Positions 109 through 47,757 of a stretch of 64,000 nucleotides of DNA are shown piece by piece (position 1 is the first letter of the stretch; every line of letters starts with the position of its first letter). The stretch covers positions 62,001 to 126,000 of the forward strand of contig NZ_JAHXBN010000016.1 of the NCBI RefSeq assembly GCF_019924045.1. Reading direction: 5' to 3'. Origin of the DNA: Dyadobacter fermentans. Lineage in GTDB: Bacteria; Bacteroidota; Bacteroidia; Cytophagales; Spirosomataceae. The notes beneath the pieces are model-generated. The model was given only the letters and a program-made list of their open reading frames with translations. It ran no database searches and was not told the DNA's origin. Position numbers and translations under genes: made by a program.

Positions 109-1365
109 ATGAATTTCAAATTGCTTCCGGCCAGTTTTGGAGCCATTTTACTGTCCATCCATACCAGCTTCGGGCAAGTTACTGAAAACCCCAAAGTAGA
201 GGAATCGTCGGTTCCCTATGTGAAAATCAAAAAAGTAGAACTGACGGACGCCAACACGGTTATTTATCTGCAATTTATCGAGCCCAAGGCGCAGAAACAG
301 CCACAATTCCGTTCGCAACCCCGGATGTCGCCTTTTCCCGACTCGCGCGTTCCGCAATTTCCACAACAAGGCATCGGCCAGAGCCAGATCTGGCTCGATC
401 CCGAGACCCGGTTGTACAAGCCGGGCGAAATCGATAAAAAGTTCAAGTTCATCAGGGCCGAGAACATTACCACTACCACCAAAACGAGCGTAGCCAATGG
501 CGATACCGTCGACTTTGTAGCCTATTTTGAAAGACTTACGCCGGGAATCGAAGAGTTTGACTTTTATGAGGGGCGTAGTTCGAATGGTAGCCAGTCGTGG
601 AATTTTTACGGAATCCATGTTAAAAACCCGCTCAAAAAGGAGCCTGCAAAATCCGGCAAACCGGTAGCAAAGGCAACGCCGCCTGCTAAAAAGCCGGCAG
701 CTCAACCGGCCGCGAAGGCACCTCAAAAGCCGGCTCCGGCCCCCGCTCCGAAAAAGGATGCTGAAATGGCCGTATTGAAAGGCACGATTTACAATGCGAA
801 AACGAAGGAGCCGATTGCGGCACAGCTTTCTTACACTGAAAGCGGCGACACGCTGCAAATCCGGTCGTCGTCCGGAAAGTACCGTGTGGGTGTGGACCCG
901 GGCGAACGCTACAAATTCCGCGTGCTGGCCCGCGGCTATTACGGGTCGTCGTTCAGCCTTACGCCCGCCGATTCAACCGGCAAATCATTCGATCAGGATG
1001 TGTACCTGACGCCGCTCATCGTTGGTGAAACGATATTGCTGCCGAATATCTATTTCGAAATGTCCAAATACACTTTACTACCGGAGTCGTATGAAGAACT
1101 GAACCGCCTGGTAGACGTCATGCGCGACAGCCCGACCGTGAAGATCCGGGTAGAAGGTCATACCGATAATGTAGGAGATTTTGACAAAAACCTCGAACTC
1201 TCCCGCCAACGCGCGGAATCGGTGAAAAACTACCTGATCGAAAAAGGCATCGAAAGCAGCCGTATTGAAGCAAAAGGCTACGGCGGCACGCGACCACTCA
1301 CGAAAGGCAGCGAAGAAGAGCGGAAAAAGAACCGTCGGGTGGAGTTTGTGATTACGGAAATGTGA
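109..1365 (+). CDS. OmpA family protein with CarboxypepD_reg-like domain
   Basis: This 418-residue exported protein probably anchors the outer membrane to peptidoglycan. It starts with a signal peptide ending near TSFGQ. A Pro/Ala/Lys-rich linker at about residues 175-220 probably spans the periplasm. A carboxypeptidase-regulatory-like beta domain ([14 protein letters not shown]) follows at about 223-300. The C-terminal OmpA domain starts at [14 protein letters not shown] near residue 314 and carries the peptidoglycan-binding signature VEGHTDNVG, then LSRQRAESV. This domain order is common in Bacteroidota. It is the only gene on its strand before a convergent gene. The N-terminal 170 residues match no domain I can name. 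Confidence 0.9.
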
Positions 1366-1380
1366 TCCGGTAACGGTTGT

Positions 1381-1538
1381 TATAGTCAGGTATTGTCAAG
1401 AGTGGTCAGGTGTAGTCATTTGTAGTCAGGTATTGTCATTGATAGTCAGAAATTGTCATCAATGGGAACCAAATTCTCCCTTCTGACTATTTCTGACAAC
1501 ACCTGACAACACCTGACAACACCTGACTACTAATGACG
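1381..1538. repeat. 10-bp-phased inverted GTCA/TGAC array (copy 1)
   Basis: GTCA occurs at 1385, 1395, 1405, 1415, 1425, 1435, 1445 and 1455, exactly 10 bp apart. After a 25-bp centre, TGAC occurs at 1484, 1494, 1504, 1514, 1524 and 1534 with the same spacing. The arms are complementary (GTCAGGTNTTGTCA against TGACAACACCTGAC) and could form a long imperfect hairpin on either strand. It fills the gap between the convergent OmpA-like and tpiA genes, so a bidirectional terminator role is possible but unproven. Confidence 0.85.
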
Positions 1539-1545
1539 GCTGCGC

Positions 1546-2307
1546 CTATCTCGCCTTGATAATATTCGTGAACTCACGTGATTTCAACGAAGCACCACCT
1601 ACGAGGCCGCCGTCGATATCCGGTGCAGCGAAAAGCTCGGGTGCGCTGGCAGCCGTAACGCTTCCGCCGTAGAGGATCGAAATTTCGTCGGCTACTTCTG
1701 CACCATATTTGGAAGCAAGGTGCGCGCGCAATGCCGCGTGCATTTCCTGCGCCTGCTCAGCCGAAGCCGTAAGGCCTGTTCCGATTGCCCAGATGGGTTC
1801 GTAAGCGATTACCACCGACTTCAGTTGCTCTTCCGAAAGATGGAAAAGGCTTTCCGTCAACTGGTTTTTTACAAAACCGATATAATCTTCATTCTGACGC
1901 TGTTCGAGTGACTCGCCGCAGCAGAAAATAGGTGATACGCCGAAAGAGAGTGCCGTATTTACTTTTTCAGCCAGCAACGCATTGGTTTCATTGAAATACT
2001 GGCGGCGCTCACTGTGGCCGATCAACACATATTGTACACCGATCGATTGCAGCATTTGTGCCGAGATCTCACCGGTGAATGCACCCGAAACTTTATCAGA
2101 GCAGTTTTGAGCGGCCAATGCGAAGTTGGGCGCGTCTTCGATATATTTTTGAATCGTAGTAAGGTAAATCGCAGGAGGGCAAAGGATGATTTTCGCGTCA
2201 TTACGGACCTCATCTTTGGCCATATTAACGAGCTCCGAAGTAAGCGCAACTGCTTCATCCAGAACCTTGTTCATCTTCCAGTTACCGGCAACAATTTTTT
2301 TTCGCAT
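1546..2307 (-). CDS. tpiA: Triosephosphate isomerase
   Basis: This enzyme interconverts dihydroxyacetone phosphate and glyceraldehyde 3-phosphate in glycolysis and gluconeogenesis. From the ATG at 2307 it is 253 residues, the usual length. Visible signatures are GNWKMN with catalytic Lys11, IGHSERR with catalytic His near 99, AYEPIWAIGTG with catalytic Glu near 170, and the phosphate-binding YGGSV and GGLVGGASL near the end. The frame stays open 17 codons further upstream, but family alignment from MRKKIVAGNWKMN makes the inner ATG the natural start. The gene is monocistronic and faces the OmpA-like gene across the repeat array. Confidence 0.96.
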   Translation of the reverse strand: MRKKIVAGNWKMNKVLDEAVALTSELVNMAKDEVRNDAKIILCPPAIYLTTIQKYIEDAPNFALAAQNCSDKVSGAFTGEISAQMLQSIGVQYVLIGHSERRQYFNETNALLAEKVNTALSFGVSPIFCCGESLEQRQNEDYIGFVKNQLTESLFHLSEEQLKSVVIAYEPIWAIGTGLTASAEQAQEMHAALRAHLASKYGAEVADEISILYGGSVTAASAPELFAAPDIDGGLVGGASLKSREFTNIIKAR

Positions 2308-2608
2308 GAGAAAATTTTTATTGTGGGAAAAAGTCATTTTACGCAACAAAAGTACCATATTTTCCTCATTTACATGATTATATATATGTGATCAAAAAAA
2401 TGTCGGAAAGTTTGCACATATCGAGATTTTTTTGTGTTTTATTAATGTGAAAAGAACTATTTTTACTTGAATTAACCGATTGGACTGAATTCGATACTTA
2501 GCGTACACCGAAGAATATAAATAGAGTTTCAAGTCGTTTATAGTCAACGTGTTGAAATATGTCACCCCGGGATTAGAACATTAGCCATTATAAAGAAAGG
2601 AGGCCACG
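2308..2608. other. Divergent intergenic region tpiA / aspartyl protease
   Basis: This AT-rich 301-bp spacer carries the leaders of two divergent genes. Apart from the tpiA -7 candidate and a Shine-Dalgarno-like AAAGGAGG just before the protease ATG, I see no gene, repeat or hairpin in it. Confidence 0.5.
2347..2354 (-). promoter_or_regulatory. Candidate -7 element for tpiA
   Basis: On the minus strand this reads TACTTTTG, a match to the Bacteroidota -7 consensus TAnnTTTG, about 40 bp upstream of the tpiA ATG. I see no good -33 TTTG at the expected distance, so support is partial. Confidence 0.4.
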
Positions 2609-4579: not shown

Positions 4580-5164
4580 ATGAATTACCAAAGCATTATT
4601 AGCCAGGAACTGAAAGAAGCACAATCCGTTCTCGACAACTTCCTGAGTGATCCGGAACAAATTGAAAAGATAGAAAAGGCGGCGGGACTAATGGCCGACG
4701 CCATTATCCATAATGGTAAAATCCTTTCCTGCGGCAACGGCGGCTCGCATTGCGACGCCATGCATTTTGCCGAGGAACTCACCGGCCGCTACCGCGACAA
4801 CCGCCGTGCACTACCCGCCATCGCGATCTCCGATGTGAGCCATTTGAGCTGCGTTAGCAACGATTTCGGGTACGAATATGTGTTTTCGAGATATATCGAA
4901 GCATTGGGCCAGCCCGGCGACGTGCTGCTGGGGCTGAGTACTAGCGGAAACTCAGCCAATATCATCCGTGCCGCCGAAGCTGCAAAGGCGAAAGGCATGA
5001 AAATCATCATCATGTCGGGCAAGGACGGTGGCAAGCTCGCGGGCGCGGCCGATGTCGAGATCCGCGTACCGCATTTCGGTTACGCGGACCGCATTCAGGA
5101 AATCCACATCAAGGTCATCCACATTTTCATGCTGCTGATCGAAAAAATGGTGCTGCGGGATTGA
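4580..5164 (+). CDS. gmhA: Sedoheptulose-7-phosphate isomerase GmhA
   Basis: This enzyme converts sedoheptulose 7-phosphate to D-glycero-D-manno-heptose 7-phosphate, the first step towards the LPS core heptose. At 194 residues it has the usual length. The SIS fold signatures are [28 protein letters not shown] and the C-terminal [20 protein letters not shown]. These segments look nearly identical to the enterobacterial GmhA/LpcA sequence as I remember it, which is unusually close for a Bacteroidota protein. It follows mnmD by 22 bp and may be co-transcribed. No other heptose pathway gene is in the window. Confidence 0.93.
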
Positions 5165-5190: not shown

Positions 5191-5398
5191 GCCATGGTCA
5201 AGTGTTGTCAGGTATGGCCATTTGCAGTCAGGAATTGGTCAGATGTGGTCATTTTTAGTCAGGAATAGTCATTTGCTCTCAAGTATTGTTATTTGTCGGT
5301 GGAAGTTTGTTTATTGAGAAACAATCATTTCAATACTTAATAACCCCTGACCATTTCTGACAACTTCCTGACCACACCTGACAAATACATCCGTCACC
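5191..5398. repeat. 10-bp-phased inverted GTCA/TGAC array (copy 2)
   Basis: The left arm has GTCA or one-base variants at 5197, 5207, 5217, 5227, 5238, 5248, 5258, 5268, 5278 and 5288. The right arm has TGAC at 5348, 5358, 5369 and 5379. It starts 25 bp after the gmhA stop and lies between co-directional genes. The copy is more degenerate than the one at 1381 and has two 11-bp steps. Confidence 0.8.
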
Positions 5399-5421: not shown

Positions 5422-5865
5422 ATGAACGTCCGTCCATCCGCTATCATTCTCGACAACGATAAGATCCTCACTCTGCGCTACCAGTACGGCGAAAAGGAAG
5501 TTTTCGCATTGCCAGGCGGTAATCCCGATCCCGGCGAATCGCTCGCGGATGCGCTTGCGCGGGAGCTCATGGAGGAATTGGGCGTGGAAGTGGAAGTCGG
5601 TAAAATGGTTTCCTGCGGAGAGGTGATCTGGCAGGAAGTACGGAAAGAGACCCTGCATATGGTATTTAACGCAAAAATAACAAAGGGAACTCCTGCACTT
5701 GACCCGGTGCATACGACGGCCCTCGAAATCGTATGGCTTCCGGTGGCATCGCTTGGTTCCAGGCATTTGTATCCCAATGTCGGTCCGCAGATCGCAGCGT
5801 TCTGCAATGAAGCTTTGCATTCGGGACACATAGGCGTCATCGACCAGCCTTACGTGCGCTCATAA
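5422..5865 (+). CDS. Nudix hydrolase
   Basis: The 147-residue protein carries a complete Nudix box, G-x5-E-x7-REL-x-EEL-G, starting at GNPDPGES near residue 32. This motif binds the metal for hydrolysis of nucleoside diphosphate derivatives. The substrate cannot be told from the sequence. The gene stands alone, downstream of the second GTCA array and upstream of the large helicase gene. Confidence 0.88.
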   Translation: MNVRPSAIILDNDKILTLRYQYGEKEVFALPGGNPDPGESLADALARELMEELGVEVEVGKMVSCGEVIWQEVRKETLHMVFNAKITKGTPALDPVHTTALEIVWLPVASLGSRHLYPNVGPQIAAFCNEALHSGHIGVIDQPYVRS

Positions 5866-41332: not shown

Positions 41333-41433
41333 GGGTTACTGAGGTTGATTTGGCACCGCGAAGTTAAGGTGAACCGCGTGATGGCACAAGGAATGGGCTT
41401 GTTTATACACATTATAAAGAAGGGGCATTTGTG

Positions 41434-41806
41434 GTCAGTAGGTTGTCAGGTGTTGTCAGGGGAGGCATGTATGGTCATGTTTAGTCAGAGTTGTCATGTA
41501 TGGTTAACGTGCGGCCGAGGGGGATTGGTTGAGAGACAAATGCCGCTAGGCATATAACATTGGTAGAACATCGGATCGGATCTTGCGTCACAAATGCCGT
41601 CAGGCATGCAACAACAATGCATTGCTGTTACATGCCTGACGGCATTTTCGAAATACCTCATTCGGGTACTGCTACCAACATTACATCGCTACGCGATTCT
41701 GGAATGGCCTGACGGCATTTGCTGACCACAAATGACCATACCTGACTATTCTTGACAACACCTGACGACTGCTGACTACCAATGACCACACTTGACCACT
41801 TCTGGC
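41434..41806. repeat. 10-bp-phased inverted GTCA/TGAC array (copy 3), interrupted by a nested element
   Basis: The left arm has GTCA at 41434, 41445, 41455, 41474, 41484 and 41493. The right arm has TGAC at 41723, 41733, 41743, 41753, 41763, 41773, 41783 and 41793, exactly 10 bp apart, running to within a few bases of the glpK stop. A palindromic element occupies the centre instead of the short loop seen at 1381 and 5191. Confidence 0.85.
41536..41721. repeat. REP/BIME-like nested palindromic element (copy A)
   Basis: The motif aaatgccgNNaggcat occurs at 41538-41553 and 41592-41607, and inverted at 41631-41646 and 41706-41720. The inner pair forms a 17-bp perfect stem (AAATGCCGTCAGGCATG) with further pairing in the loop (aacaacaatg against cattgctgtt). 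Between outer and inner motifs lie ATTGGTAG and CTACCAAC, also inverted, and TACATCGCTACGCGATT. It aligns closely with the element at 45905. Confidence 0.85.
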
Positions 41807-41807
41807 G

Positions 41808-43307
41808 TCAATCAATCCAGTCGTACGACTTGGTAACCGCCTTCTTCCAACCCTTATAGTACGCGTCTCGTTTTTCGGCTTGCATATCGGGGTTCCAGGT
41901 GTGGGCGATGGCCCAGTTTTTCTTCAAATCATCCGTGCTTTTCCAATATCCGACGGCCAGTCCGGCGGCATAGGCGGCTCCTAATGCGGTGGTTTCGGCC
42001 ACAGCTGGCGATACCACCTGGGTATTCAGAATATCGGATTGGAATTGCATTAAAAGTTGGTTGTGTACCATCCCACCATCTACGCGAAGGCTGGCGAGTT
42101 TGATTCCCGAATCCTGCTCCATGGCTTTGACCACGTCAGCCGTTTGATAGGCAGTGGCTTCGAGTACGGCGCGGGCAATATGTCCCTTGTTCACATAGCG
42201 CGTAAGGCCCGCTACCACACCACGTGCATCGTTGCGCCAGTAGGGTGCGTACAGGCCCGAGAATGCGGGTACGAAATAGGCGCCACCGTTATCTTCGACG
42301 GTTTGCGCGAGTGGTTCAATGTCGCTGCTGTTTTGGATCAAGCCAAGGTTGTCGCGCAGCCATTGCACGAGCGCACCGGTGACTGCTACGCTGCCTTCCA
42401 ATGCATATTGCACGGGCTGATCGCCGAATTTGTAGGAAATTGTGGTAAGCAGGCCGTTTTCAGACGTTTTCAGCTCGTTGCCCGTGTTCATCACAAGGAA
42501 GCAGCCGGTGCCGTAGGTATTCTTGGCCATGCCGGGTTCGAAGCAGGTTTGGCCTACCAATGCAGCGTGTTGGTCGCCGAGGTCGCCGGCAACGGGAACA
42601 CCGGGAAGTACTTCGTGGGTGGTGTAACCATATATTTCACTGCTGCTTTTGATGGCCGGCAGCATGATTTCAGGGATATTGTAAGCGGCGAGCATCGATT
42701 TGTCCCATTGCAGCGTCCGTAAATTCATGAGTTGCGTACGGCTGGCATTGGTGACGTCGGTCACGTGAATGCCACCCTGCGTACCGCCCGTGAGGTGCCA
42801 GATCAGGAAGGTATCCATGTTCCCGAATATTGCCTCGCCTTTTTCAGCGTCTTCCCGGATGCCGTCGACGTTTTCCAGCAGCCATTTCAGTTTTAAACCA
42901 CTGAAATAAGTCGAAACCGGCAGGCCGGTAATCTCACGAAACTGGTTGAGGCCGCCTTCCTTTTCATATTTCGCCACGAGCTCAGTGGTGCGCGTATCCT
43001 GCCACACCAATGCATTGTAATAGGGCTTGCCGGTGCGCTTATTCCACACCACCGTCGTTTCGCGCTGGTTGGTAATGCCCACAGCCGCAATGTCCGAAGC
43101 GTGTGCCGACACGTGAATGCGCGCCAAGGCGATCACTTCCAGGGTGTTTTTCCAGATTTCAGTCGGATTATGTTCCACCCAGCCCGGTTTCGGGTAAACC
43201 TGCTCATGTTCTTTTTGTCCTACCGAAACGATATTCCCCTGTTGGTTGAAAAGTATGCAGCGTGTGCTGGTCGTTCCCTGGTCAATGGCGGCAATGTATT
43301 TGGACAT
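41808..43307 (-). CDS. glpK: Glycerol kinase
   Basis: GlpK phosphorylates glycerol to glycerol 3-phosphate. The 499-residue FGGY-family kinase shows [14 protein letters not shown] at residue 7, [10 protein letters not shown] near 103, [13 protein letters not shown] near 242, [12 protein letters not shown] near 264, and [14 protein letters not shown] near 383, followed by [18 protein letters not shown]. No facilitator or dehydrogenase gene is adjacent. The gene has its own divergent promoter region shared with pbpC. Confidence 0.96.
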
Positions 43308-45773: not shown

Positions 45774-45782
45774 GGTTCATTT

Positions 45783-46226
45783 GTGGTCAAGTGTAGTCAT
45801 GTATTGTCAAGTGTAGCCAGGAATAGCCACGAATGGTCAAGAATAGTCAGGTGTTGTCAGGAATAGCTATGGATCGTCTGATGTAGTCAAAATGTAGCCC
45901 GGAGGCAAATGCCGTTAGGCATGTAATATTGGTAGCAAACATATCGGGGCCTGTTCCGTCAAAAATGCCGTCAGGCATGTAACAACAATGCTCTGTTGTC
46001 GCATGCCTGACGGCATTTTTCGGAATACATCCCGGGGCTCGATTGCTACTTATACTACATCGCTACGCGATTTTAAGCGACCCGCTTCTATTCTCCACAC
46101 TTAACAATTTCTGACAACACATACCCATTCCTGAACGTAAATACTCACTCCTGACTAAACATGACCGTAAATGCCCACTCCTGACTATTCCTGACTAAAC
46201 ATGACTACTCCTGACAACACCTGACC
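45783..46226. repeat. 10-bp-phased inverted GTCA/TGAC array (copy 4), with nested element
   Basis: Left arm: GTCA or one-base variants at every tenth base from 45786 to 45886 (11 positions, 7 exact). Right arm: TGAC or variants in one 10-bp register at 46112, 46132, 46152, 46162, 46172, 46182, 46192, 46202, 46212 and 46222. The register holds over about 100 bp per arm despite base changes between the tetramers. The centre is taken by a palindromic element. Confidence 0.87.
45905..46074. repeat. REP/BIME-like nested palindromic element (copy B)
   Basis: aaatgccgttaggcatg at 45907-45923 is followed by an inner hairpin whose 19-bp arms are perfect (45961-45979 against 46002-46020) with a partly paired loop (acaaca against tgttgt). 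TATTGGTAGC and GATTGCTACT flank the hairpin in inverted order, and ACTACATCGCTACGCGATTTT closes the element as in copy A. The fourth motif arm present in copy A is not recognisable here. Confidence 0.85.
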
Positions 46227-46229
46227 ACA

Positions 46230-47264
46230 TTACAACGGCTGATCCTTCGCTTCCTGGTACAATACCTGAACGAGCGTCTGACCGACGGCTTTCAACGTCT
46301 TCGGATCGATGTTTTCCATCGTATCATGTGCAGTATGCCACTGGTCGAAGAACGTTTTGCTCATATTATTCTGGCGTGTGTGGATGATGTCGATCATCGG
46401 AATGCGGGCTACTTTGTTGACCGGGACGTGGTCGTCGGTAATGGCCGCGCCGGTTTCATCGATGAAATAGTTGCTATAACCGAGGCGGCTTGCGGTTGCC
46501 CATATCTGCCTCACCGTGTCATTCGCCAGTTGAACCGAATAGCCTTCCTTGAAAAAAGTAGCACCTTTTGCGCCGACCATGTCGAGCAGAACGCCGAAAT
46601 AGGCCGTATAGTTGGGGTTATGCTTGTTCGCCGCCCAATGCTGGGAGCCGAGGCAAAAACCACCATGTTCCATTCCGGTATCTTCCGAACGCGATGAACC
46701 CCAGTCTTCGGCATCAAAAAAGATAATGTCGACACCGATATCCGGCTTGGCAGCTTCTTTGGAAAGTACGCGCGCAATTTCCAGCAATACACCCACGCCA
46801 CTCGCACCGTCATTAGCCGCTAGTACGGGTTTGTTTTTTACCAAAGAATCCTGATCAGAAAACGGCCGCGAATCCCAGTGTGACGCCAGCAGAATGCGTT
46901 TGCTTGCCTGTGGGTTAAAGCTCCCGATTATATTCCGCGCATTCAGCTTGGTACCGTCGTAAGTGGTGGTAGTGAAAAGCTGCTCGACTACTGTCCAGCC
47001 GTATTTTTTCAAGGTAGCTGCCAGGTAATCACCACAAGCTTTGTGTTGGGCGGTATTTGGTACACGTGGGCCGAAATCAACCTGCTTTTGCACAAATTGA
47101 AAAGCGCTGTCGGCATTGAAATCCGCACTTTTTACCAATGCGACCGGTGCCTGTTCTGCGGTTTGTTCGGAACTGGTGTTGCTATTGCACCCGTAAAGGC
47201 CGATGACGATCGCTAATGCGATGGGTAAGCGCCTAAAAAACAGTTTATTAGAAAGAAATGGCAT
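46230..47264 (-). CDS. M28 family metallopeptidase, lipoprotein
   Basis: The 344-residue product starts with a lipoprotein signal (LFFRRLPIALAIVIGLYGC, lipobox LYGC), so it is probably attached to a membrane. The M28 zinc aminopeptidase core is visible: LASHWDSRPFSD (His, Asp), AANDGASGVGVLLEIA (Asp), DAEDWG (Glu-Asp), and a late His in DIIHTRQNNMS. The fold overlaps with glutaminyl cyclase-like members, and LASHWDSRP with FFDAEDWG is typical of those, so cyclase activity is possible. It overlaps the DUF192 gene by 17 bp. The ATG at 47264 gives the proper signal sequence. Confidence 0.88.
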   Translation of the reverse strand: MPFLSNKLFFRRLPIALAIVIGLYGCNSNTSSEQTAEQAPVALVKSADFNADSAFQFVQKQVDFGPRVPNTAQHKACGDYLAATLKKYGWTVVEQLFTTTTYDGTKLNARNIIGSFNPQASKRILLASHWDSRPFSDQDSLVKNKPVLAANDGASGVGVLLEIARVLSKEAAKPDIGVDIIFFDAEDWGSSRSEDTGMEHGGFCLGSQHWAANKHNPNYTAYFGVLLDMVGAKGATFFKEGYSVQLANDTVRQIWATASRLGYSNYFIDETGAAITDDHVPVNKVARIPMIDIIHTRQNNMSKTFFDQWHTAHDTMENIDPKTLKAVGQTLVQVLYQEAKDQPL

Positions 47265-47757
47265 CTCCTGATTGAATATTGTTTTGCTTGGTAAAACCTG
47301 CATTGACCTCCACCACATATTGCACCAGGCCGTACGGCGGAATAGATTCCTCCGAATACGGTTGGGTGTTTTCTGCGATAGAAATGATTTTTTTATCCGG
47401 ACCTACATATATAATGTCCAGCGGGATGGATGTGTTCTTCATCCAGAATGAATGTTCATCGGGTTGTTCAAAGATGAACAGCATACCTACCGAATCGGGC
47501 AGGTAGGAGCGAAACATCAGTCCTTTGTTGCGTTCGGCTTCGTTTTCTGCAATCTCGACCTCGATTTTTTTGAAAGGCTGGCCCTTTTTCATGAAAGTCA
47601 CCTCGCCTTCTTTATTGAATACCGGGGTTGGAACTGCCGGAGCGAATGTTTCGACCGGCTCGCTTTTGTCGGAAAACGATGCGATGAAATACGCCACGCC
47701 GCCCAACAAAAACACACCCAGTAATATAAATGCAAAAACCGACTGCCGCTTTTTCAC
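47248..47757 (-). CDS. DUF192 family protein, membrane-anchored
   Basis: The 169-residue protein starts with GTG, has one N-terminal membrane segment (FAFILLGVFLLGGVAYFIA) and a DUF192 domain at about 60-165 with the marks NEAERNKGLMFRSYLPD, MLFIFEQPDEHSFWMKNTSIPLDIIYV and YVVEVNAGF. The function of DUF192 is unknown. It lies 2 bp after cysS and overlaps the M28 gene, so the three are translationally coupled. Confidence 0.9.
   Translation of the reverse strand: MKKRQSVFAFILLGVFLLGGVAYFIASFSDKSEPVETFAPAVPTPVFNKEGEVTFMKKGQPFKKIEVEIAENEAERNKGLMFRSYLPDSVGMLFIFEQPDEHSFWMKNTSIPLDIIYVGPDKKIISIAENTQPYSEESIPPYGLVQYVVEVNAGFTKQNNIQSGDAISF

Follow-up and report, generated by a model that had tools for sequence, protein, structure and literature searches.

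Inverted arrays of a 10-bp GTCA unit at gene ends in Dyadobacter: a candidate gene-end hairpin

In plasmid centromeres bound by ParR, such as parC of plasmid R1, repeats at about one helical turn form two sets that flank a unique stretch, and these repeats are direct and confined to one locus per plasmid. The short tandemly repeated repetitive (STRR) sequences of cyanobacteria have a heptamer period. The Nostoc repeats csR1.1 and csR1.3 are intergenic and have a GTCA core, csR1.1 being ttgtcagttgtcagttgtca with 44 genomic copies (PMC2408588). REPs are single hairpins of 21–65 nt that carry a GTAG/GTGG guide and have a Y1 transposase as partner, and some have been linked to transcription termination (PMC6006769). 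Close inverted pairs of the Neisseria DNA uptake sequence (DUS) are described as Rho-independent terminators (PMC2397512).

The DNA analyzed here is a stretch of 64,000 nucleotides of the 8.0-Mb genome of Dyadobacter fermentans GCF_019924045.1 (C59:62001-126000, contig NZ_JAHXBN010000016.1), herein termed the window. It contains four palindromic elements, each with GTCA units forming the left arm and TGAC units the right, in 10-bp steps (Table 1). A weight-matrix finder returned exactly eight arms, forming four (+,–) pairs at 1385–1537, 5197–5382, 41424–41806, and 45776–46243, the last end overshooting into a gene end (the final TGAC begins at 46222), and it returned no arms when run on the window reversed or on a further 800 kb of the genome, likewise reversed. 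The first-pass annotation had described eight GTCA (1385–1455) and six TGAC (1484–1534) at exact 10-bp steps in element 1, with similar arrays at three further sites, and both descriptions are confirmed. The strict 10-bp register that it claimed holds for element 1 and some other arms, but not for element 2, which has an 11-bp step, or for elements 3 and 4, which have mutated units and odd steps. All four elements adjoin a stop codon, as had also been noted, with arm-to-stop distances of 19 and 8 bp for element 1 and of 32, 1, and 2 bp for elements 2, 3, and 4. The flanking genes are ordinary (OmpA family, TIM, SIS, NUDIX, exonuclease, FGGY kinase, penicillin-binding protein, and M28 peptidase), and Rfam covariance models gave no match to the window at gathering score.

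Table 1. Features of the four elements in the window (positions are those of the window)
Feature	Position	Strand	Description
Element 1 left (GTCA) arm	1385..1464	+	8 units
Element 1 right (TGAC) arm	1478..1537	-	6 units
Element 1 slot			Convergent; flanks OmpA-family gene 109-1365 (+) and TIM gene 1546-2358 (-)
Element 2 left arm	5197..5297	+	10 unit positions, one 11-bp step
Element 2 loop	5298..5331	.	Contains GGAAGTTTGTTTATTGAG
Element 2 right arm	5332..5382	-	5 unit positions
Element 2 slot			Tandem; flanks SIS-domain gene 4580-5164 (+) and NUDIX gene 5422-5865 (+)
Element 3 left arm	41424..41502	+	Degenerate
REP-like insert, element 3 loop	41529..41720	.	Ends approximate
Element 3 right arm	41717..41806	-	8 TGAC, exact register
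Element 3 slot			Tandem; right arm 1 bp from stop of FGGY-kinase gene 41808-43307 (-)
Element 4 left arm	45776..45885	+	11 unit positions
Element 4 left flank			Transglycosylase/transpeptidase gene, end 45773 (+); arm begins 2 bp past its stop
REP-like insert, element 4 loop	45907..46095	.	Ends approximate
Element 4 right arm	46096..46225	-	Reaches stop of M28-peptidase gene 46230-47318 (-); convergent slot

The unit is 10 nt long and can be written GTCA-N4-T-(not C). Among 786 interior units, which were picked by their neighbours only, positions 1–4 are GTCA in 97–99% each, position 9 is T in 96%, position 10 is C in 1%, and positions 5–8 are variable (0.28–0.80 bits) with little C. Consecutive GTCA steps measure 10 bp in 998 of 1158 cases, 11 in 39, 9 in 13, and 20 in 58, and within the window a distance of 10 occurs 17 times between GTCA tetramers and 19 times between TGAC tetramers, every other distance from 4 to 18 occurring at most three times. 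A spacing of 10 bp is thus commoner than the others, and the impression that tetramer and spacing are kept while the bases between them vary extends well beyond the window. Arms contain 3–27 units, and the unit profile is nearly identical in upstream, downstream, and convergent arms. In tandem slots, intact cores are more frequent in the downstream arm (0.878 vs 0.821 upstream, p 0.027, 50 elements, at least one entered twice) and its spacing is no better (0.854 vs 0.855, p 0.47); the G of TGAC is the core base most often altered (5 of 12 single changes). GTTCG-core units stand in for GTCA units in part of both arms at L199 (G012), L201 (G021), L202 (G006), and L321 (G014). At the element-4 slot of G006, G021, and G012 the GTTCG-type core is in one arm and CGAAC in the opposite arm, and the units of L201 and L202 run GTCA-GTTCG / TGAC-CGAAC instead of mirroring each other.

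The array family is real, is common in Dyadobacter, and bears clear signs of constraint. A scan for runs of four GTCA at 10 bp found 306+304 in the genome and none with a mirror control. The finder located nine elements in 800 kb of contig C9 of the same genome (score 30), and extrapolation from the 39 runs and 13 elements of the sample puts the genome total at ~200 elements in 8.0 Mb, an estimate that is rough because density varies. The four-unit run is present in 26 of 36 other Dyadobacter genomes (2 to 470 runs, both strands summed) and in none of the 22 genomes from other genera of the order, among which G038 has seven matches to the mirror control. Arrays were found in 11 of 121 genomes in a sample of the family (7 of 10 Dyadobacter, the window's own included, and 4 of 111 others) and in 4 of 395 in a sample of the phylum, again including the window's own, and 61 Dyadobacter stretches are among the 103 matches listed, of at least 103, in a six-unit scan. 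The arrays are therefore a Dyadobacter family with rare relatives elsewhere. An inverted-pair array begins 10 bp past a stop codon in Spirosoma panaciterrae (L085), and another, in a Bacteroidota MAG (L086), is separated from the stops on its two sides by 4 and 8 bp. Some other matches of the scan are plain perfect tandem repeats (e.g., L066 and L143), which need not be related. One clade of a three-protein tree, for which no support values were printed, has no arrays (G008, G015, G017, G020, and G035). A phage origin was rejected: of 21 viral contigs with five units by pattern, 11 had no array at a finder threshold of 26, and the other 10 each had one single arm, mostly a near-perfect simple repeat, with no (+,–) pair.

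Placement was assessed with 76 elements from the window, 800 kb of C9, and 61 Dyadobacter stretches, using gene models from our own small gene finder rather than a published one. After seven elements at stretch ends were dropped, the 69 that could be classified comprised 47 in tandem gaps, 21 in convergent gaps, and 1 in a divergent gap, compared with 524 tandem, 96 convergent, and 124 divergent among the 744 background gaps of at least 30 bp (binomial for the divergent deficit, about 1e-6 by bases and 5e-5 by gaps). The median distance from an arm is 14 bp to a stop codon and 66 bp to a start codon, and none of the 76 overlaps a gene model by more than 60 bp, so the enrichment at 3' ends anticipated from the four cases in the window applies generally. 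The GTCA arm comes first and the TGAC arm second in all 86 paired elements of a wider sample of 124, at least two of which were entered twice (L089/L368; L081/L371, the same contig stretch). The other 38 have one arm only at the threshold used, and single arms in tandem slots show no sense preference (10 sense, 15 antisense). Arms in tandem slots are about equally long, the longer being upstream in 21, downstream in 23, and neither in 6.

Orthologous gene ends reveal both persistence and turnover. In six relatives with 82–89% DNA identity, 18 of 24 slots are filled (four each in G018 and G011, three each in G003, G002, and G032, and one in G034), no array lies outside the four slots in their 60-kb stretches (score 22), and unit counts shift between relatives from 4 to 19 per arm. 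Of the 30 species read at the element-4 slot, 13 have an array, one has a remnant, nine have 1–4 bp between the stops and evidently do without an array, three have ~40 bp that are array-free, and four are not comparable. Loci with and without a copy, whose comparison the first-pass annotation had proposed, therefore include slots common to relatives as well as clean empty sites. On the three-protein tree, species with a filled element-4 slot range from deep branches (G010 and G024) to the clade of the window, which makes repeated loss the simpler explanation. The element-2 slot has arrays in 6 of 28 readable species, and its loop sequence, GGAAGTTTGTTTATTGAG, is present also in the array-free alleles of the near relatives G032 and G034 (with one base different in G034); the arms thus flank older sequence, and either their addition or their loss is possible. 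It is also possible that GGAAGTTTGTTTATTGAG (5298–5331), conserved in filled and empty alleles, is a promoter or leader of the NUDIX gene.

The TIM/OmpA slot was classified by eye in 30 of 37 genomes, nine of which have an array, six a GAGCG...GTCGAAG palindrome, six a hairpin with a U-tract, four another palindrome, and five only 5–6 bp. From one species to another, this slot may thus hold the array, a different palindrome, or an ordinary terminator. Three typed patterns of other palindromes were found at none of 92 array-free convergent ends, hence such exchange is not general in the strains sampled. A palindrome that occupies the slot in six species, GTCA..CTGAGCGNAGTCGAAG, itself starts with GTCA (L164, L167, L169, L170, L173, and L180). 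In four species (L184, L185, L186, and L189) the slot is filled by palindromes whose period seems to be 7 bp (AGTTTAC, AGTTTTT, and similar); they may follow the principle of the arrays with a different unit.

Close strains gain or lose blocks of 26–39 bp, and array ends have no sharp consensus and are not fixed. A transposon, MITE, or mobile element with defined ends was rejected, as there is no terminal consensus and no target-site duplication was seen by eye between empty and filled slots. The cores themselves hardly change. In four orthologous elements of G006 and G021, which are about 94–97% identical, differences fall at 1 of 204 sites in cores, 47 of 649 in linkers and loops, and 32 of 732 in flanks (Fisher, core vs flank p 0.0045; core vs linker p 3.5e-5, the "linker" class also taking in loops and GTTCG-type units and, for the pair L372/L367, some sequence from beyond the array). 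Since aligners anchor on cores, the identity measured there may be too high; for this reason, and because the linker class holds outside sequence, the contrast with flank is the safer one. Core changes are about nine-fold below flank, a conservation between strains that tells against random decay, the outcome that the first-pass annotation had set against its own view. In a 400-kb comparison of G006 and G021 each has one element, the same one.

The inner ~200 bp of elements 3 and 4 are a different, inserted repeat. This insert forms six clusters in the window and C9, three of them inside array loops, and insertion into loops looks preferred. It carries GCCGTCAGGCATG, which flanks a Y1 transposase gene of the window's genome (L439, 6 matches) and is present at four more of 31 transposase loci (11, 5, 1, and 1 matches). 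The insert is a REP-like family of its own, and the arrays are not REP-like. The REP-like repeat (AAATGCCGTCAGGCATG...) was read in the loops of elements 3 and 4, at G000 C9:443385, and at L439. The arrays were considered and rejected as the partner repeat of a RAYT, as none of the 31 Y1_Tnp loci (30 stretches and one in C9, four being incomplete, drawn from 156 matches in 37 genomes) carries an array. Several array-free genomes have full-length Y1_Tnp matches, hence there is no simple link between array and transposase. G034, with 0+2 runs, has Y1_Tnp matches that are partial and weak, and its array-rich sister G002 has a single full-length one. At G000 C9:176926-177900, copies of another palindrome (GCCGTCGACTTAAGTCGACGG and a near copy) follow a second Y1 transposase gene.

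From the place, history, and structure of the elements, they probably function as hairpins at gene ends. Specifically, we propose that each element is a two-way 3' hairpin, either a terminator or a barrier that fixes mRNA 3' ends, composed of interchangeable 10-nt units, and we assign this reading a probability of roughly one half. Nearly all left-arm units offer GTCA with T at position 9 and nearly all right-arm units the complement, and with this shared core any left unit can pair with any right unit. Because units would be interchangeable, arms could gain, lose, or replace them by slippage without losing the stem. Selection would preserve the core and the constant unit length, and the linkers, each facing a new partner after every slip, would drift. 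We infer that the elements are transcribed into RNA and that the hairpin serves in termination or 3'-end protection, slippage being the presumed mode of turnover.

The first-pass annotation had named a long RNA hairpin as one explanation, and physically this is sound, the transcript of element 1 having a predicted fold of –81.3 kcal/mol (z –9.3). C is scarce in left arms and G in right arms, and as a result the right arm would barely fold on itself, leaving it free for the left arm; predicted energies are –1.5 kcal/mol for the right arm alone (vs –8.8 for strand-symmetric shuffles), –7.0 for the left (vs –8.4), and –49.5 for the arm-arm duplex. The stem is register-tolerant, pairing being equally good at offsets of zero, one, and two units: across 61 elements, ungapped arm pairing is 0.59–0.62 at offsets of –20, –10, 0, +10, and +20, and 0.29–0.44 at others from –25 to +25. 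Arm lengths are correlated within species (rho 0.34, p 0.003, n=76; re-pairing test p 0.0075, n=79). The hairpin is not a finely co-evolved stem, however, as own arms pair no better than the arms of conspecific strangers (n=56, six species; mean z –0.03, p 0.96), and an effect in a first test with species pooled (mean z –0.34, p 0.013, 77 elements) was gone within species. Fine co-evolution of arms is thereby rejected or at least weakened; the result fits register tolerance, though it is no positive proof by covariation.

Array gene ends are short of U-tract terminators, which are found at 10 of 90 compared with 132 of 456 other ends (p 2e-4) and, for convergent ends only, at 8 of 42 compared with 39 of 92 (p 0.011). 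This scarcity fits functional replacement, and growth of an array over an old terminator predicts the same. A GC-rich stem followed by a U-tract is thus the exception at array ends, where the arms reach the next gene, and the hairpin, having no U-tract behind its arms, departs from the textbook form of an intrinsic terminator. At array ends the strongest 60-nt hairpin does not exceed that at other ends (medians –19.9 vs –21.1 at convergent ends and –15.75 for both at tandem ends). Of the single core transitions in tandem elements, 6 preserve pairing as G-U and 11 disrupt it; the numbers are small, and the pattern is the opposite of that predicted for an RNA stem. Moreover, self-pairing alone does not require one core in hundreds of elements and in other genera, and the near-identical unit profile in either direction of transcription also suits recognition of DNA.

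A possible though doubtful alternative is therefore that ~9 bp of each unit, R-T-D-GTCA-D-K, is the site of a putative dsDNA-binding protein, one molecule per helical turn coating the arm as a boundary or roadblock between genes. The shared profile of upstream, downstream, and convergent arms, the core constraint, and the exact spacing of 10 are in keeping with this, as are linkers without compensation between arms, the missing RNA wobble signature, and the recurrence of the GTCA unit both in further genera of the family and elsewhere in the Bacteroidota. Linker preference also shifts species-wide in both arms (GG rho 0.54 and TT rho 0.62 over all; 0.00 and 0.25, p 0.03, within species). Predicted curvature, calculated with wedge values, exceeds that of dinucleotide shuffles (1.10 vs 1.03, mean z 3.3, 83 arms), but any 10-bp period raises it, and with GTCA ranking 33 of 256 tetramers, intrinsic curvature was discarded as the reason for GTCA. 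The arms have no phase relation across the loop (n=53), which counts against a single protein sheet over both arms and, together with the curvature rank, leaves the earlier suggestion of a protein on one face of the helix unsupported. Nor would a one-way roadblock need arms of about equal length in tandem slots, and the co-variation of arm lengths likewise argues against protein-coated arms.

We consider it unlikely that the arrays are satellite-like or selfish repeats with no host function that are tolerated between gene ends, their core purity arising from the mode of copying. Promoters and coding regions could not bear arrays, which would account for their place. Run number ranges from 0 to 610 within one genus, a whole clade is array-free, clean empty sites exist, and the 26–39 bp blocks come and go. 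Such repeats would not explain why orthologous slots remain filled or why core substitutions are about nine-fold below flank, and the arrays lack both defined ends and any association with the 31 Y1 transposase loci. It is very improbable that the TGAC arm is, together with the hairpin, a ladder of RNA-polymerase pause sites (consensus G-10, Y-1, G+1), one per 10 nt. In favour of such a ladder, the repeat itself places T-G with a G ten bases before it in one TGAC unit after another, the second arm is invariably the TGAC one, and downstream tandem arms have more intact cores; against it, the downstream spacing is no better and the G of TGAC changes more often than any other core base.

A more far-reaching reading is possible though doubtful: the elements might be a class of gene ends in which a 10-nt-phased core is read by a putative dedicated factor and interchangeable units keep the function of the stem through complete sequence turnover. 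If so, the absence of arrays in G008, G015, G017, G020, and G035 would reflect loss of that factor. More generally, the data suggest how, across a genus, a long hairpin could outlast the replacement of its own sequence at a given site, with the unit rather than the pairing partner as the code, and RNA finders based on covariation would miss such register-tolerant stems. Slots that are filled, empty, or differently filled offer a natural set for testing what ends transcription in Bacteroidota.

The first-pass annotation knew of no described family of this kind. For the exact unit this may hold, as searches of the open-access literature on GTCA repeats, Dyadobacter intergenic palindromes, and Bacteroidetes REPs found no description of the array family, but the kind has relatives in REPs and BIMEs, paired DUS terminators, and cyanobacterial repeats. 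In contrast to the direct repeats of parC, those of the arrays are inverted, and nothing in them suggests partition. The csR1.1 and STRR repeats have a period of 7 rather than the 10 of the arrays, and in the available text csR1.1 and csR1.3 are not described as paired inverted arms at stop codons (PMC2408588). The likeness to REP/BIME-RAYT systems lies in many copies that are intergenic and palindromic; however, the arrays have a variable number of units and no fixed ends, in place of a single short hairpin with a 5' GT[AG]G foot, and they lie at none of the 31 Y1 (HuH) transposase loci examined. The likeness to DUS pairs is that a short sequence, with a role of its own, forms an inverted pair at gene ends, although the DUS comprises one 10–12-mer per arm, about one per kb, whereas the arrays have 3–27 units per arm and amount to ~200 elements in 8 Mb.
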